A program made the position numbers and the translations under genes. A stretch of 64,000 nt of DNA from an uncultured Lachnospiraceae bacterium (GTDB lineage: Bacteria; Bacillota; Clostridia; Lachnospirales; Lachnospiraceae): NCBI GenBank assembly GCA_947172645.1, contig CAMWBY010000001.1, positions 186,001 to 250,000 of the forward strand, read 5' to 3'. The notes below the pieces were generated by a model, which saw only the letters and a list, made by a program, of their open reading frames with translations, did no database searches and was not told the DNA's origin. Below are positions 1-10,647 of this stretch, in pieces; the stretch's first letter is position 1; each line of letters begins with the position of its first letter.

Positions 1-85
1 CAATCCTGCCACAATACTGCAATCCGTCATGCACCGGTTCCACCAGCCGCTCCTTTTCCTCGTCATATTCATTCCACTGTTTCAT
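1..85 (-). CDS. Unidentified protein, N-terminal fragment coupled to the Roc-COR gene
   Basis: Only the first 28 codons are inside the window. The ATG is at 85-83 and the frame stays open to base 1, starting M-K-Q-W-N-E-Y-D and rich in Glu and Lys. A GGAGG ribosome binding site sits just upstream, inside the last codons of the LRR-GTPase gene, whose TAA stop ends one base before this ATG. That spacing implies translational coupling, so the two products are probably made together. The fragment is too short to recognise, and no function is proposed. Confidence 0.6.
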   Translation of the reverse strand, partial: MKQWNEYDEEKERLVEPVHDGLQYCGRI

Positions 86-86
86 T

Positions 87-3000
87 TTATGTCCTCCGTT
101 TTTCTGTCAACATATGCACCAAAACATGCGTCAATACAGTTTCCTTATCATTGCGCTGCAAAGTGACGTCGAAGACTGCCCGTTCCGCAAAGTTTCCCCG
201 CTCCTCGCACGCTGTCGCCTCATAAGGATATTCGTACTGTTCGATATACTCCCGGTACTTGTCCTTAAACGCTTTAAAATCCTTACCCTCCGCATACACC
301 AGAATATAGTTCCTGGGAAGTCCCCATGTATCATAGGTGTATACTTTATCAATATGGTTAGACAGCTTATCCTGATTCAGGCTGTCTAGGTTCAATGCCT
401 CCACTACGGCAACAGGCATGTTTTTCCGGCTCTTTATCAGCAAATCAAGCTCTCCTGCCGCCTTGCCGCCGCTGGAAATCCCGTTTAACGTCTGGTCGCA
501 GACAATATAGTTCTTATTTACAGACAACAAATTTCTCAAATAAGTGTTCCTGTCATTCTCTTTTCCTTCCAGTATCTGCAGCGTATCACCCTGGAGCTTC
601 ACACAGCATTCCAACAGCTCCTCCTCAAACCGCACATAGTCGTTCCTTGCATGAATTTCCGAGAGCATCCTGTAAATAGCGGAAACGTCCGCATTTTTCT
701 TCTCACTGCAATAACGGATGATACTGTCCGTATCCATTTCATTCTCCACAACCCCAAGAATCTGCCGGATAGGTATTCTTTTCCGGAATACAGGGGAAAA
801 ATAACTGTTCTCCTTGGAGGCAAGATATATCAGCAGCATACTATATTCAATGCTTTCCGACATATCGCCCTCCCGGTAGACGATAGTGTCCTTCGCGTGT
901 AAGTTTAATTCCCTGTTAATGGCCAACAGGTTGTCCCTGATTTCGCTCATATACTCTTTTTCCGGGTAGAGACTGCCGTTTGTGCTTTTTACAAAAATTT
1001 CTATCCGCTTCTCATGCATCCTGACCAGTGCGGAAATGTGGTTCTCCCTGGCCCGCAAAATCATCCCCGTAAGCCAGATTTTGTCCTTGTCGAAATCTTT
1101 CTGCATACGAATCATGAGTTTATGCAGGACATTGTTAGGAAGATAGTCATACTCCATATAGTACTCCAGGCAGTCTCCCGCCATAAATATCCCCGCTTCC
1201 TCATGCTGGTTCTTGTCGCACATCATAGGGATAAACTCGTGCCTGTCATCCAACGCATAAGAAATCTCGAAACGCTCCATCACGCCCAGAATATATGGCA
1301 CCTCCATCACATTATACTTAATGTTTTCCACAGACTTGGGCGGCTCCCGCAACAGGCTTACAATGCTGTCCTTACTTATAATACCGTTTTGCGCATAGTT
1401 GCTTCCGTTAAATAATATGATGTAGATGGCGTTTGTAATCCATGTAGGCTTCAACACCATATACCCGCCCAGAAGCTGGTCTTTTTTATGGTAGTTAAAG
1501 CTGACGCCCAGGTCATGGAACCAGTCAAGCAGCCAGTCCTGTATCTGCTCGTCTTCCACTGAATTGCTGCGGCAGATTTCCCGATACTTGGGGTCTGTGA
1601 TATAATTACTGTCCATCTCTGTCAAAATCGTCTTAATATTGTTCCAGGATACCGGAAAATCCATGGCATAGCTGTCGAATGTCCTGACCGTGGAGATAAT
1701 CTCTTCCATCAACCCGCCAAAAGACGCACTGTCATCTTTCAGCGCAGACATTTTCATAATACGGACAATCTGGGGATAGTCATTGCGAAGAAGCCTTTCG
1801 TTGATGCTTGCGGTAGGATTCTGGTCCATCTTATTGAGGACGATAATTACCGGGCAGCCATTGGCAAAGCTCTTCACATTATTCAGCCAATACTCCGCTC
1901 TCTCATCCTGGGTATTATCCCTGGCATTGATGACCACCACATACAGCGTCCGCTCCGTCAGGAAAAACCTGTGCATGGAATGCATTATCTCCTGTCCGCC
2001 GAAATCCCAAATCTGCAGCCGGATATCTTCCCCGTCAATCGTGCATTCTTTAGGCGAAATGGCGATTCCCGGTGTGGATTCCTCCGCGAAATCCGTCAGC
2101 ACCGCATTGGACGCCTTGATTCTTGCGATAATATGGCTTTTCCCTGCCTCCCCATCCCCCAGGAAGACCACCTTCGTCTCATTCAAGTGAATTTTCTCTT
2201 CCTCATAATATGCGTTGATAAACTCCTTCTCATGAGAAAAAAGGCTTATCGGCTGACATAATAGTTTCGTATCATCCAAATGCAGGCCGTCACTCATAAA
2301 AGCAGTGTAGGAACCTATTTTCATCTTATCGCCAATCAATTCCCTGGGGATTCTCTCCAAAGTCATGCCGCTTAAATTGCACTGCTCCAACCGCTTCATC
2401 GGCGCAAGCGGCGGAAACCTGCGGACAGCCGTATTGTGCAGCTGCAAATCCGTCAAATTGCTCAGGTTCCCAAAGCTCTCCGGCAATTCGGTAATTCCCG
2501 TCCCATCCACATAAAGTTTCTCCAAGTTTACCAGATTCCCAATCCTTTCCGGCAGAGAAGCTATATTTCTATCCCTTCCCAGATACAATCCCCGAAGGTC
2601 AGTAAAATTGCAAATCCAATCCGGAAGCGTTTCCAGAGGCGTCTCCCACAAGGCCAAATGCTTTAAGTTCACTAACGCCTTCATCTCTTCCGGCAAAACT
2701 TTGATATCCGTCTTTCCTAAATATAGATGTGTCAGCCATGGCATCCTGCACACAACATATGGGACTTCATTGATATCCAACCCATTCAGTCCTAAGTACC
2801 GCAGATTCTCTAACTTTATTAAGTCTTCCGACAGCTCCGTTATCTGTGTGTACATAACAGACAGCGCCTTCAATGATTGCAGCCCATAGACGCTCTCCGG
2901 CAGTCCTGAAATGCCAGATTCATTCAAGTTCAAAGTTTCCAGGCCAGATAAGCCGGATAAAGAACAGAAATCCAACGTATACAGGCTGCATCTGAATAAA

Positions 3001-3410
3001 TCAAGATAAATAAGCCCCTTTAAGTCAAAAATAATCTCAGGCACAGTCATACATCCATGAATCCGCAAATATTTGATGCCGCCATATTCTCTGACAAACC
3101 CTTCCCAATCCCAGTCAGACTCGTCTTCTACCGCAAATATACATACCTGTCCGTCGCACAAATAAGTAACTTCCTTATCCATATAAGTGTCATCAAAATA
3201 AACGTCTGCAAATATACACTGTTCCGCATTTTTCTCTGTCTCTTTGTCCGTCCCCTCTCCTACGGCTGTCTTTGCATCGCTGTTTTCCCATAACATCTCA
3301 TCGGTCCAATCATCATCTCCCGGCTCGTCCGCTATCTGTCCCCATTCTTGGACAATGTCAAATTCTATCGGCGTCTTCAGCTCCTGGTTGATAAACTCTT
3401 CAAAAGTCAT
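87..3410 (-). CDS. LRR-Roc-COR (Roco family) GTPase with nuclease-like C-terminal domain
   Basis: A 1107-residue multidomain protein. Residues 1-100 are acidic and unrecognised. Residues about 110-360 hold roughly ten leucine-rich repeats of 22-24 residues (pattern LxxLxLxxTxIxxLP). A Ras-like Roc GTPase follows: P-loop GDGEAGKS at 418-425, switch II DFGGQE at 469-474 and NKMD at 526-529. Residues about 590-850 fit a COR domain. The C-terminus (about 945-1107) has the pattern GELDLLI (986-992) followed by VVEAL (1002-1006). This resembles a PD-(D/E)XK nuclease core with Asp989 and Glu1004, but Leu stands where the motif lysine is expected. Roco proteins are known GTP-controlled switches; coupling to a nuclease-like tail is my inference. 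The start has a GGGAGG site 6 bases upstream. An unrelated gene lies upstream and a coupled gene downstream. A role in defence or stress sensing is possible but not shown. Confidence 0.85.
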   Translation of the reverse strand: MTFEEFINQELKTPIEFDIVQEWGQIADEPGDDDWTDEMLWENSDAKTAVGEGTDKETEKNAEQCIFADVYFDDTYMDKEVTYLCDGQVCIFAVEDESDWDWEGFVREYGGIKYLRIHGCMTVPEIIFDLKGLIYLDLFRCSLYTLDFCSLSGLSGLETLNLNESGISGLPESVYGLQSLKALSVMYTQITELSEDLIKLENLRYLGLNGLDINEVPYVVCRMPWLTHLYLGKTDIKVLPEEMKALVNLKHLALWETPLETLPDWICNFTDLRGLYLGRDRNIASLPERIGNLVNLEKLYVDGTGITELPESFGNLSNLTDLQLHNTAVRRFPPLAPMKRLEQCNLSGMTLERIPRELIGDKMKIGSYTAFMSDGLHLDDTKLLCQPISLFSHEKEFINAYYEEEKIHLNETKVVFLGDGEAGKSHIIARIKASNAVLTDFAEESTPGIAISPKECTIDGEDIRLQIWDFGGQEIMHSMHRFFLTERTLYVVVINARDNTQDERAEYWLNNVKSFANGCPVIIVLNKMDQNPTASINERLLRNDYPQIVRIMKMSALKDDSASFGGLMEEIISTVRTFDSYAMDFPVSWNNIKTILTEMDSNYITDPKYREICRSNSVEDEQIQDWLLDWFHDLGVSFNYHKKDQLLGGYMVLKPTWITNAIYIILFNGSNYAQNGIISKDSIVSLLREPPKSVENIKYNVMEVPYILGVMERFEISYALDDRHEFIPMMCDKNQHEEAGIFMAGDCLEYYMEYDYLPNNVLHKLMIRMQKDFDKDKIWLTGMILRARENHISALVRMHEKRIEIFVKSTNGSLYPEKEYMSEIRDNLLAINRELNLHAKDTIVYREGDMSESIEYSMLLIYLASKENSYFSPVFRKRIPIRQILGVVENEMDTDSIIRYCSEKKNADVSAIYRMLSEIHARNDYVRFEEELLECCVKLQGDTLQILEGKENDRNTYLRNLLSVNKNYIVCDQTLNGISSGGKAAGELDLLIKSRKNMPVAVVEALNLDSLNQDKLSNHIDKVYTYDTWGLPRNYILVYAEGKDFKAFKDKYREYIEQYEYPYEATACEERGNFAERAVFDVTLQRNDKETVLTHVLVHMLTEKRRT

Positions 3411-3468: not shown

Positions 3469-3484
3469 AACTCTATTAGAAATC

Positions 3485-3567
3485 GAGTAGGGAAGATTTC
3501 TCCCCCTACTCGCCGCGCGGGGTGCGTGCAGCAAAGCTGCTAATTTCCTTACGCACCCCTGCGCATA
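3485..3567. repeat. Two-hairpin dispersed element, copy A
   Basis: On the plus strand GAGTAGGG (3485-3492) pairs with CCCTACTC (3504-3511). After GCCGCGC, GGGGTGCGT (3519-3527) pairs with ACGCACCCC (3551-3559), with AGCA/TGCT pairing inside it. The element ends in TGCGCATA. Copy B at 15041-15125 has the same layout with a different second-stem sequence that still pairs. It lies upstream of the Roc-COR gene. Confidence 0.65.
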
Positions 3568-7605: not shown

Positions 7606-8502
7606 CTACACTCTCAGGTGCTTTCTGACTGTAACAATACTTCCCAGGAATCCGATTCCCACGCCGATTCCCAGGGATACCGGCGTCAAGATATGGAATA
7701 CTTCTTCCACCGTCAGGAACTTAAGCAGGGAAGAGAGCATGGAAAATCTGGCTGTCACATATTCCATTACCATGTTATAAACGCCGTAAATAATTCCAAG
7801 AGGAATCGCAGCGCCAATCAAACCAATCATCATACCTTCAATGACGAAGGGGGACCTGACGAAGAAATCCGTAGCCCCAATATATTTCATAATGTTAATC
7901 TCTTCCTTACGAACTGAAATACCAATCATGACCGTATTGCTAATCAGGAACACCGACACGGCAAACAGGATTGCGATAATGCCCACCGACACGTAGGCAA
8001 TCAAGGCGTTAACGCCTGTCAGAGTGGTGGCTACAATCTCGGAACGGTTAACCATCCTGACGCCATCCACAGATTCCAGATAAGTAACCAAAGCAGACTG
8101 CATGGATACGTCATTCAGATAGACTTCGTAATTCGCCGAATTTTGGAGCGGATTCTCCGTAAAACCGTCCGCGTAATCACCCAGATAGTCAGTCTTAAAA
8201 GATTCCCATGCATCCTCGGCAGATACGAAATGGACATCTGACACCTCCGTCCGCCTGAGAATCATATCCCCGATTTCCTGTATTCGGCTGTCCTCCAGTC
8301 CTTCATCAAAGAATACATACACGGCCACCCCTTCCTGGGCCCGGTGCACGATATTCTGGAAATTTGTCACAATAGCATAAAAAAGCCCAAACAAAAACAG
8401 ACAGGAGCTAATCGTCGCAATGGATGCCAGGGTAAACCATTTATTTCTGAAAAGGTTGCGCACACCCTGTCTGAGCGTATAGAAAAAGCTGTTAATCCTC
8501 AT
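7606..8502 (-). CDS. ftsX: Cell division protein FtsX
   Basis: Membrane half of the FtsEX complex, which transmits ATP hydrolysis by FtsE to an extracellular wall hydrolase. There are four membrane segments: one near the N-terminus, a large extracellular loop (about 45-165), then three toward the C-terminus, as usual for FtsX. The ATG at 8502 is chosen because GGGAGG lies 9 bases upstream; the ORF extends 8 codons further. This start overlaps the end of ftsE by 11 bases, indicating coupled translation. Confidence 0.94.
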   Translation of the reverse strand: MRINSFFYTLRQGVRNLFRNKWFTLASIATISSCLFLFGLFYAIVTNFQNIVHRAQEGVAVYVFFDEGLEDSRIQEIGDMILRRTEVSDVHFVSAEDAWESFKTDYLGDYADGFTENPLQNSANYEVYLNDVSMQSALVTYLESVDGVRMVNRSEIVATTLTGVNALIAYVSVGIIAILFAVSVFLISNTVMIGISVRKEEINIMKYIGATDFFVRSPFVIEGMMIGLIGAAIPLGIIYGVYNMVMEYVTARFSMLSSLLKFLTVEEVFHILTPVSLGIGVGIGFLGSIVTVRKHLRV

Positions 8503-9223
8503 CGATGTACCCTCCCTTTTCCTCATCGCTTATGATAACGCCCTTTTTCAAGGTGATAACGCGTTTCTGCATCGCGTTGACAATCTCTCTGTTGTGGGTC
8601 ACAACGATAACCGTGGTACCGCTCTCGTTAATCTGTTCCAACAGTTTCATGATTTCCCATGAATTTTTAGGGTCCAGATTTCCTGTAGGCTCATCCGCCA
8701 ACAGTACGGTCGGTTTATTGACCAGTGCGCGGGCAAGCGCTACCCTCTGCTGCTCGCCGCCGGATAGCTGCCTGGGCTTCGCCTTATACTTGCCTGCAAG
8801 CCCCACAATGGCCAGTATGCTAGGCACGTTTTTCTTAATCTCCTTGTTGGACTTCTGTATAATCCTCTGCGCAAAAGCAACATTCTCATATACGTTCCTG
8901 TCCTTAAGCAGCCGGAAATCCTGGAACACGACGCCCAGATTCCTTCTGAACTTCGGAATCTTCCTGTGCCTGATTTTGGACAGGTCATATCCCATAACGT
9001 TGATATATCCGCTTGTAATCGTCAATTCCCTTAGAAGCAGCTTAATCAGGGTGGACTTGCCTGAGCCGCTGTCCCCTACAATAAACACAAATTCCCCTCT
9101 GTTAATATGAAGATTCACATCCTTAAGCGCCGGAGCCCCGGTAGAATACGCCTTGCTCACTTTAGTCAGCGTGATAATCTCTTTCTCCGGCACCGCGCTT
9201 CTTCTCTTTCTTCTCTCTGCCAC
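8492..9223 (-). CDS. ftsE: Cell division ATP-binding protein FtsE
   Basis: ABC-type ATPase of the FtsEX complex. Walker A GDSGSGKST is at 50-58, the LSGGEQQR signature at 153-160 and Walker B LLADEPT at 174-180, followed by the H-loop VVTH. It has a short basic N-terminal extension. Length (243) is close to the family norm of about 225. It is the first gene of ftsE-ftsX-M23-ctp-manC on this strand. The upstream gap to the CdaR-type gene is only 21 bases, so transcription may begin further upstream. Confidence 0.95.
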   Translation of the reverse strand: MAERRKRRSAVPEKEIITLTKVSKAYSTGAPALKDVNLHINRGEFVFIVGDSGSGKSTLIKLLLRELTITSGYINVMGYDLSKIRHRKIPKFRRNLGVVFQDFRLLKDRNVYENVAFAQRIIQKSNKEIKKNVPSILAIVGLAGKYKAKPRQLSGGEQQRVALARALVNKPTVLLADEPTGNLDPKNSWEIMKLLEQINESGTTVIVVTHNREIVNAMQKRVITLKKGVIISDEEKGGYIDED

Positions 9224-9244
9224 TTGTTCACCACCTATAATCTC

Positions 9245-10333
9245 TTAGTATTCAAAGCTTTCCATATATTTCATATACTTCACGACCATAAGCGCAATCT
9301 TGAAGGTGATTGCGTCCTCAAATACGCGCAGGTCAAGCCCTGTGCTTTTCTGGAGCTTATCCAGTCTGTACACCAGCGTATTCCTGTGTATAAAAAGCTG
9401 CCTGGAAGTCTCCGACACATTCAAAGAGTTCTCAAAAAACTTATTAATTGTAGTCAATGTCTCTTCGTCAAAATCATCCGGGCTCTTCCCGTCAAAAATT
9501 TCCTTAATGAACATCTTGCACAACGGAATCGGCAGTTGGTAAATAAGACGCCCGATACCCAGCTCGCTGTAGGCAATCACATCCCTCTCGTTAAAGAAAA
9601 TCTTACCTACATCCAAAGCCATCTTTGCTTCTTTATAGGAACGGCTTACTTCCTTAATCTCATTTACAATTGTGCCGTATGCAATCCTCACATTCTGGAA
9701 ATTTTCTTTCTGCAAAAACACTGCAATGCTGTCCGCCGCACGGTCAATTTCTTTCGTGCTGTCTCCCTCGGACAAATCCTTTACAACAATCACATTGTTC
9801 TCATCCACGGCCGTGATGAAATCTTTGCTGTTGGTGCCGAAGTATGTACGCATCGTCTCAAGCACATTGCTGTCCTTGGCGTTGTCCGTCTCAATAATGA
9901 GCACCACCCGTTTTACATCCGTCTGGATATGCAGCTTCTTGGCCCGGCTGTAGATGTCCACCAGAAGCAGGTTGTCAAGCAATAAGTTTTTAATAAAGTT
10001 ATCCTTGTCAAACCTTTCCTTATACGCCACCAGAAGATTCTGAATCTGGAAAGCAACCATCTTCCCCACCATGTAGACGTCCTCGCCCACACCTCCGGCA
10101 ATCAGCACGTACTCCAACTGCTGCTCGTCAAAAATTTTAAAATACTGATACCCTTGTATCTCCTGCGAGTCCGCCGGGGACTTTGCAAACTCCGCCGCAG
10201 GCTTGCCGCACTTCTCCATCTCATCGACTGTTGTTGCCACAGGCTTGCCGTCAATATCCATGACGCAAAGCTCTACTCTTGCAATTGATTTTAACCCCTC
10301 AATCGTATTCTGTAAAATCTGATTCGAAATCAT
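9245..10333 (-). CDS. CdaR/PucR-type transcriptional regulator
   Basis: A 362-residue protein. The C-terminal 55 residues are a PucR-type helix-turn-helix containing FIHRNTLVYRLDKL, typical of the sugar-diacid regulator family (CdaR). The N-terminal half looks like a ligand-binding region, and the middle like the GGDEF-derived domain of the family. The ATG at 10333 is favoured over the GTG at 10342 because GAGGTGGGG lies about 8 bases upstream. No diacid-use genes lie nearby, so the ligand and targets are unknown. It lies 21 bases before ftsE and may be co-transcribed with it. Confidence 0.83.
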   Translation of the reverse strand: MISNQILQNTIEGLKSIARVELCVMDIDGKPVATTVDEMEKCGKPAAEFAKSPADSQEIQGYQYFKIFDEQQLEYVLIAGGVGEDVYMVGKMVAFQIQNLLVAYKERFDKDNFIKNLLLDNLLLVDIYSRAKKLHIQTDVKRVVLIIETDNAKDSNVLETMRTYFGTNSKDFITAVDENNVIVVKDLSEGDSTKEIDRAADSIAVFLQKENFQNVRIAYGTIVNEIKEVSRSYKEAKMALDVGKIFFNERDVIAYSELGIGRLIYQLPIPLCKMFIKEIFDGKSPDDFDEETLTTINKFFENSLNVSETSRQLFIHRNTLVYRLDKLQKSTGLDLRVFEDAITFKIALMVVKYMKYMESFEY

Positions 10334-10647
10334 AAGCCCCACCTCTTGTCATTCTTTTAGCAATTTACACAAAGTAAACAACCGCTAAATTCTTCGAAAT
10401 ACAACATCTAGTATTCATCTTAATCTATTTTTACAAAAAAATCTAGCTCTAATCATGTCTTTTTTGTGTATTTTTTAACTCAAACCTAAAATTCTTTTAT
10501 TTTATTTTTATAGACAATTTATACAAACATTATTTATGGGCCGTTCAGATTCGCAAAAATCCCTCGCTATCTGCACTGACATATGCTATAATTAAATATT
10601 GACAAGAGGTTACGGGATAAAAACCACGCAATAAGGAGGGGATTCAT
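10334..10647. other. AT-rich intergenic region between divergent CdaR-type gene and yjfB
   Basis: A 314-base gap with long A/T stretches at about 10420-10530. It carries the extended -10 promoter of yjfB and the GGAGGGG ribosome binding site just before 10648. No further gene is seen. Confidence 0.6.
10584..10592 (+). promoter_or_regulatory. Extended -10 promoter element for yjfB
   Basis: TGCTATAAT matches an extended -10 (TGn-TATAAT). No good -35 is visible at 17 bases. It lies 56 bases before the yjfB start codon. No sigma-D motif was found here. Confidence 0.55.

Follow-up and report, generated by a model that had tools for sequence, protein, structure and literature searches.

Bacterial Roco proteins are used as structural models for LRRK2. 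In the NLR-like defence proteins of bacteria, such as Avs and other members of the STAND group, one chain combines a repeat sensor, an NTPase switch and an exchangeable effector. The protein described here is encoded in a stretch of 64,000 nucleotides (the window) from an uncultured Lachnospiraceae bacterium (GenBank assembly GCA_947172645.1, contig CAMWBY010000001.1, positions 186,001 to 250,000) and is, judged from its sequence, a complete Roco-family GTPase related to the human Parkinson's-disease protein LRRK2. It resembles the Avs and STAND proteins in its predicted one-chain arrangement of repeat sensor, NTPase switch and exchangeable effector, and differs from them in having a Roc-COR GTPase as its switch where they have a STAND ATPase, and in carrying the effector at the C-terminus. 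The prokaryotic Rocos known at the time of PMC6337361 consisted of leucine-rich repeats (LRR) and RocCOR only, according to the available part of that article. Matches of CtRoco of Chlorobium tepidum (PDB 6hlu, 8r4b and 3dpu) to the window Roco ended near the end of COR-B; compared with human LRRK1 and LRRK2, the window protein lacks the kinase and has a nuclease-like C-terminus instead. Roc-COR, as AP-GTPase, was placed among the predicted immune NTPases of bacterial conflict systems by Kaur et al. 2020 (PMC7159879), who associated it with vWA ternary systems found in cyanobacteria and verrucomicrobia; a tail of the window type is absent from the description in the accessible sections. Brown-algal ROCO proteins, which are eukaryotic, have been proposed as immune receptors, and the available part of that report makes no mention of a nuclease-like tail (PMC11378527). 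Apart from the AP-GTPase remark on conflict systems, no literature joining bacterial Rocos to phage defence was noticed among the literature matches inspected.

We consider it moderately probable that the window Roco is a single-protein NLR-like immune switch, in which a Roc-COR GTPase would control a variant nuclease-like tail; the defence role is read from shared domains and gene company. This reading was reached from the domains themselves, from the invariant acidic, histidine and basic residues of the tail, from the recurrence of the tail with NTPases in defence-like loci, and from the other ends found on other Rocos. The gene is an intact frame from ATG to TAA (Table 1). Its N-terminal repeats matched Pfam LRR_14 (9e-25), as expected of a Roco-family LRR, and are likely the sensor. 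Roc, COR-A and COR-B all exceeded the Pfam cut-offs, and the order of Roc with G1, G3 and G4 followed by COR places the protein in the Roco family. The initial annotation had read LRRs, a Roc domain and a COR-like region from the letters, and these were recovered by Pfam and by motif position (GDGEAGKS begins at residue 418, DFGGQE at 469 and NKMD at 526); the motif residues were mostly invariant in an alignment of 44 sequences including the window protein. The Pfam scan of the protein returned no STAND NTPase family, Roc being present instead, and no kinase domain. Since the full-length model had a pTM of only 0.58, no domain arrangement is claimed. One Roco was found in the source genome; two further Roc-like matches were identified by eye as IF-2 and a dynamin-like GTPase and set aside as not being Rocos.

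The tail spans residues ~928 to 1107, and the motifs GELDLLI (986) and VVEAL (1002), on which the initial annotation had based its nuclease-like reading, were confirmed in it. It is not a chance feature: 43 proteins outside its own cluster align to 96% or more of the region with identities of 40% and above. The tail is an effector domain without annotation or name in the profile libraries searched: no significant match was obtained in Pfam, NCBIfam, PHROG or PDB sequences, and a profile of the tail found nothing in PDB sequences at E ≤ 5. In the AlphaFold model (a predicted structure, assigned with DSSP) an alpha-beta-beta-beta-alpha-beta core was present. This is the reference order of the PD-(D/E)xK core. 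A conservation profile built from 14 diverse tails found 199 domains in 161 of the 171 gathered proteins, and residues were counted per protein in the most C-terminal copy (n = 161). The acidic residues on strands 2 and 3 (D989 and E1004) were present in 161/161 copies, Q973 was kept in 160 and D972 in 150. Clustering of the 199 domains at 70% identity gave 114, among which D989 was kept in 111, E951 in 108, K or R at 1022 in 108, H1019 in 107 and E1004 in 106, the losses arising because first copies (see below) are degenerate. The tail is like PD-(D/E)xK nucleases (BamHI, OkrAI, McrC, NucC and Can2) in predicted core topology and in the placement of D and E, and differs from them in having no lysine after the second acidic residue and an invariant histidine with K or R on the next helix. 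The conservation looks like that of a working site with the basic residue shifted to the next helix, K/R1022 being the candidate for the relocated residue. The tail likely functions like a PD-(D/E)xK nuclease; since the lysine test failed, it is termed PD-(D/E)xK-like only and full membership is not claimed.

The same domain was found on other proteins, often next to an NTPase. In P2-EC5 it is carried by ORF333, which follows ORF555 (AAA_15, 1e-23), and a match occurred in 7 of 5,426 E. coli genomes, four of them covering at least 80% of the gene. Of the four E. coli loci that were opened, two belong to P2-type prophages and sit in the interval from the replication gene to the portal gene, described as a hotspot in the available part of PMC9122126; the other two are in islands that carry a recombinase, and one of these islands also has a type III restriction subunit. 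Four loci were also found on viral contigs, three of which show the same pair by eye; in the fourth (L038) the upstream frame was shorter (472 amino acids) and without a P-loop start. With PHROGs, a portal gene was confirmed for L037 and a replication gene for L039. AAA_15 and effector pairs such as PARIS occupy P2/P4 hotspots (PMC9122126, as far as accessible), and the tail domain is likewise the second gene of an AAA_15 pair at a P2 hotspot; the best PADLOC match of the P2-hotspot ATPase was NsnB (1.1e-49), with AriA at only 4.4e-27, and the second gene gave just a weak CARF-PDDEXK match. The pair of AAA_15 and 333-residue proteins at the P2 prophage hotspot (L041:243-2913; L065:6332-9002) is annotated as hypothetical and is itself a candidate defence system.

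Further contexts were a SLFN_AlbA_2-tail protein overlapping a TmtA homologue (4.3e-141) by 4 bp and flanked, as a pair, by type I restriction genes on both sides (G273); a 647-residue tail protein followed by an IetA-like AAA ATPase (G056); and, assigned by eye, a row of a 215-residue protein, a 682-residue SMC-like ATPase and a 531-residue tail protein (G570). This three-gene row (L074:863-5119) recalls ABC three-component systems. On plasmids, the domain occurred with AAA_15 as a 304-residue protein (Vibrio), at the end of proteins of 1258 and 1252 residues (Salmonella and Edwardsiella) and as an end piece (Acinetobacter); in the Salmonella plasmid (L043:6683-13634) the gene after that of the 1258-residue protein encodes a HATPase protein, part of which weakly resembles HSDR_N_2. 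Placement in defence islands, which the initial annotation had suggested checking in homologues, held for some relatives of the tail and failed for the window copy, whose neighbours look ordinary by eye, and one of five tail-bearing Roco loci from clostridial genomes with readable flanks had a restriction gene nearby (hsdR, ~3.7 kb upstream, L008). Two further tail-bearing Rocos were on plasmids. A Photobacterium LRR-Roc-COR-tail gene (L042:5733-8471) lies in a Tn7-like type I-F CRISPR-associated transposon between helix-turn-helix and TniQ genes, one base after the former; in Spirosoma such a protein is encoded near transposase and reverse-transcriptase genes. A 201-residue protein at a contig end (G302) consists of the tail domain alone.

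Among the best 120 of 1369 Roc-COR relatives, examined for their C-terminal ends, 110 carried the nuclease-like tail; of the remaining 10, one had a metallophosphatase end, six had short tails of ~130 residues and three stopped at or just after COR. The C-terminal metallophosphatase domain was seen in P0103. Two more distant Rocos from GTDB genomes ended in a TIR domain (L010:10209-10574 in the open reading frame 7632-10634; PF13676, 3.5e-24, PDB matches being TIR chains) and, by eye, in a membrane segment (L014). A relative of 1417 amino acids (P0045) has an N-terminal protein kinase, LRR, Roc, COR and the nuclease-like tail, and so differs from the window Roco, which has no kinase. In 38 of the 161 tail proteins (between P0086 and P0143; Rocos of 1374 to 1931 residues) a second copy of the tail precedes Roc-COR; it is often degenerate, with key residues lost in several cases. 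The tail was found in 5 of 397 genomes of the family (the source genome, G001 on a Roco, and three with non-Roco proteins); in the phylum sample it occurred in 2 of 398 genomes and COR-A in one, the source genome. Such rare and scattered occurrence fits a horizontally moving gene.

The sensor-switch-effector arrangement put forward by the initial annotation is supported by the LRRs, by Roc-COR and by the predicted PD-(D/E)xK-like tail, which turns up repeatedly next to relatives of defence genes. In the proposed mechanism, binding of a phage product or damage signal to the LRRs would be relayed through the nucleotide state and a rearrangement of the Roc-COR dimer; two tails would be brought together or unmasked and would then cleave DNA or RNA, so that either the phage is blocked or the cell is stopped. 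An immune role becomes directly testable through a nuclease-like effector that forms part of the Roco chain and is shared with the P2-hotspot pair, which can be cloned in laboratory E. coli. We hold, more tentatively, that bacterial Rocos may form an immune-receptor class of their own, with LRR sensor and Roc-COR switch driving exchangeable effectors (a new His-Lys PD-(D/E)xK variant, TIR, metallophosphatase) and the same nuclease clade serving AAA_15, TmtA-, IetA- and SMC-type defence NTPases. If true, this would add a GTPase-switched class to NLR-like immunity and hint at what the LRR-Roc-COR core evolved for.

Several observations weigh against the immune reading, and those on the tail bear also on an alternative in which its PD-(D/E)xK-like fold has lost catalysis and serves to bind nucleic acid or another protein, so that the Roco would act as sensor or scaffold and depend on an unlinked partner for signalling. 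At residue 1006, where the lysine of E-x-K is expected, L (125), M (31), F (4) or V (1) was found, so that it is replaced in all 161 C-terminal copies; loss of key residues is evidently tolerated in the copy before Roc-COR in several of the 38 two-copy proteins. The counted proteins were selected by the tail profile, which favours conserved ones. The predicted topology supports the nuclease-like reading, and the plain Foldseek search gave no PDB match at E ≤ 0.001; its top PDB rows were weak matches to tyrosine phosphatases (TM ~0.26). VIA-align scores were below 8, with other proteins (acetyl-CoA carboxylase, Rep15 and RNA polymerase subunit E) following at 4 to 5.5. Against viral models, a single Foldseek row passed E ≤ 0.001, a match to a riboviral polyprotein (TM 0.32), and Mrr-like and RPB5-like entries ranked lower; neither these nor the tyrosine-phosphatase rows decide the identity of the tail. 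The presence of E951, D989, E1004, H1019 and a basic residue 1022 in 161/161 proteins across architectures is hard to explain by folding alone, and a dead fold is accordingly judged unlikely.

Doubts about defence as such come from the gene company. No family of PADLOC-DB 2.0.0 matched the window Roco, and PADLOC gave one weak match among 13 tail rows (PDC-S58, 0.014). All defence-like contexts of the tail were reached through the tail search, with no background rate for random domains, and AAA matches such as IetA may be generic. The neighbours of the window Roco are, by eye, ManC, S41 and M23 peptidases and FtsEX, and the Rocos of L005, L007 and L009 likewise lie among ordinary genes. Such chromosomal surroundings would suit a stress or programmed-death switch that responds to signals from inside the cell (DNA damage, envelope stress) and plays no specific part against phages. 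This we regard as improbable, a little more so than a dead tail, because the occurrence of tail relatives on a CRISPR transposon, in P2-type prophages, on plasmids and next to restriction genes is suggestive of a conflict of hosts with mobile elements.

It is very improbable, finally, that Roco and the downstream gene form a working pair in carbohydrate or envelope metabolism, in which the Roco would control the esterase or the transporter genes that follow. The initial annotation had noted that the downstream gene begins one base after the Roco stop, which the coordinates bear out (stop codon 89-87, ATG 85-83, same strand), and the likely ribosome site of the esterase falls within the last Roco codons; its proposal of a partner next door found no support. 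The esterase, complete in the genome (360 amino acids, L004 11004-12086, minus strand), is 81% identical to one in a genome of the same genus (G419), which precedes the same set of transporter genes (oppA-like, oppB-like and, where the stretch ends, the beginning of an oppC-like gene; named by eye), with no Roco in the 15 kb covered. With locus L015 excluded, the esterase was found at 0/11 other Roco loci (matches above 60 bits; flanks unequal and several contigs short), and a Roco at 0/5 opened esterase loci (G419 and four further). Upstream of the esterase, clear similarity between G419 and the source genome begins only near the esterase ribosome site, a pattern that placement of the Roco ahead of the esterase would produce. 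At ManC-like loci of same-genus genomes a Roco was found in 0/8, within roughly 1.5 kb. A terminator-like hairpin separates the ManC-like gene from the Roco gene, which suggests that the latter is transcribed on its own; the stretch scanned had 10 terminator-like sites, compared with 3.5 on average after shuffling. From these comparisons the Roco likely sits at a junction between two older gene blocks, in which case its tight spacing to the esterase is no evidence of partnership and the neighbouring esterase is likely incidental.

Table 1. Coordinates of features at the Roco locus (positions in the window; residues of the Roco protein).
Feature	Position	Strand	Evidence
LRR-Roc-COR (Roco) protein with nuclease-like tail, 1107 amino acids	87..3410	minus	Open reading frame, Pfam, PDB relatives 6hlu/8r4b/3dpu/4wnr
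Leucine-rich repeats, residues ~112-360	2331..3077	minus	LRR_14/LRR_4/LRR_8 (Pfam), repeat starts mapped by script, LRR proteins among structural matches
Roc GTPase, residues 413-529, G1/G3/G4 motifs	1824..2174	minus	PF08477 1.9e-25
COR-A (PF16095 1.5e-28, 586-727) and COR-B (PF25497 2.5e-11, 747-885), residues 586-885	756..1655	minus	Pfam
C-terminal PD-(D/E)xK-like domain, residues 928-1100	111..629	minus	AlphaFold topology, VIA-align matches, family HMM
E951, start of first core helix, kept in 161/161 C-terminal copies	558..560	minus	AlphaFold model, family HMM
GELDLLI, residues 986-992, with D989 kept in 161/161	435..455	minus	AlphaFold model, family HMM
VVEAL, residues 1002-1006, with E1004 in 161/161 C-terminal copies	393..407	minus	Family HMM
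H1019 to K1022, next helix; H in 161/161, K (126) or R (35) at 1022	345..356	minus	AlphaFold model, family HMM
Start of CE2-type carbohydrate esterase gene (runs beyond the window), unlikely partner	1..85	minus	CE2_N 5e-17
Terminator-like hairpin, 11-bp stem, between upstream ManC-like gene and Roco gene	3484..3512	minus	Terminator scan

A short SIR2-domain open reading frame (139 amino acids) near a weak JAB-like one was also seen ~11 kb downstream of the Roco gene (L004:20-1296).
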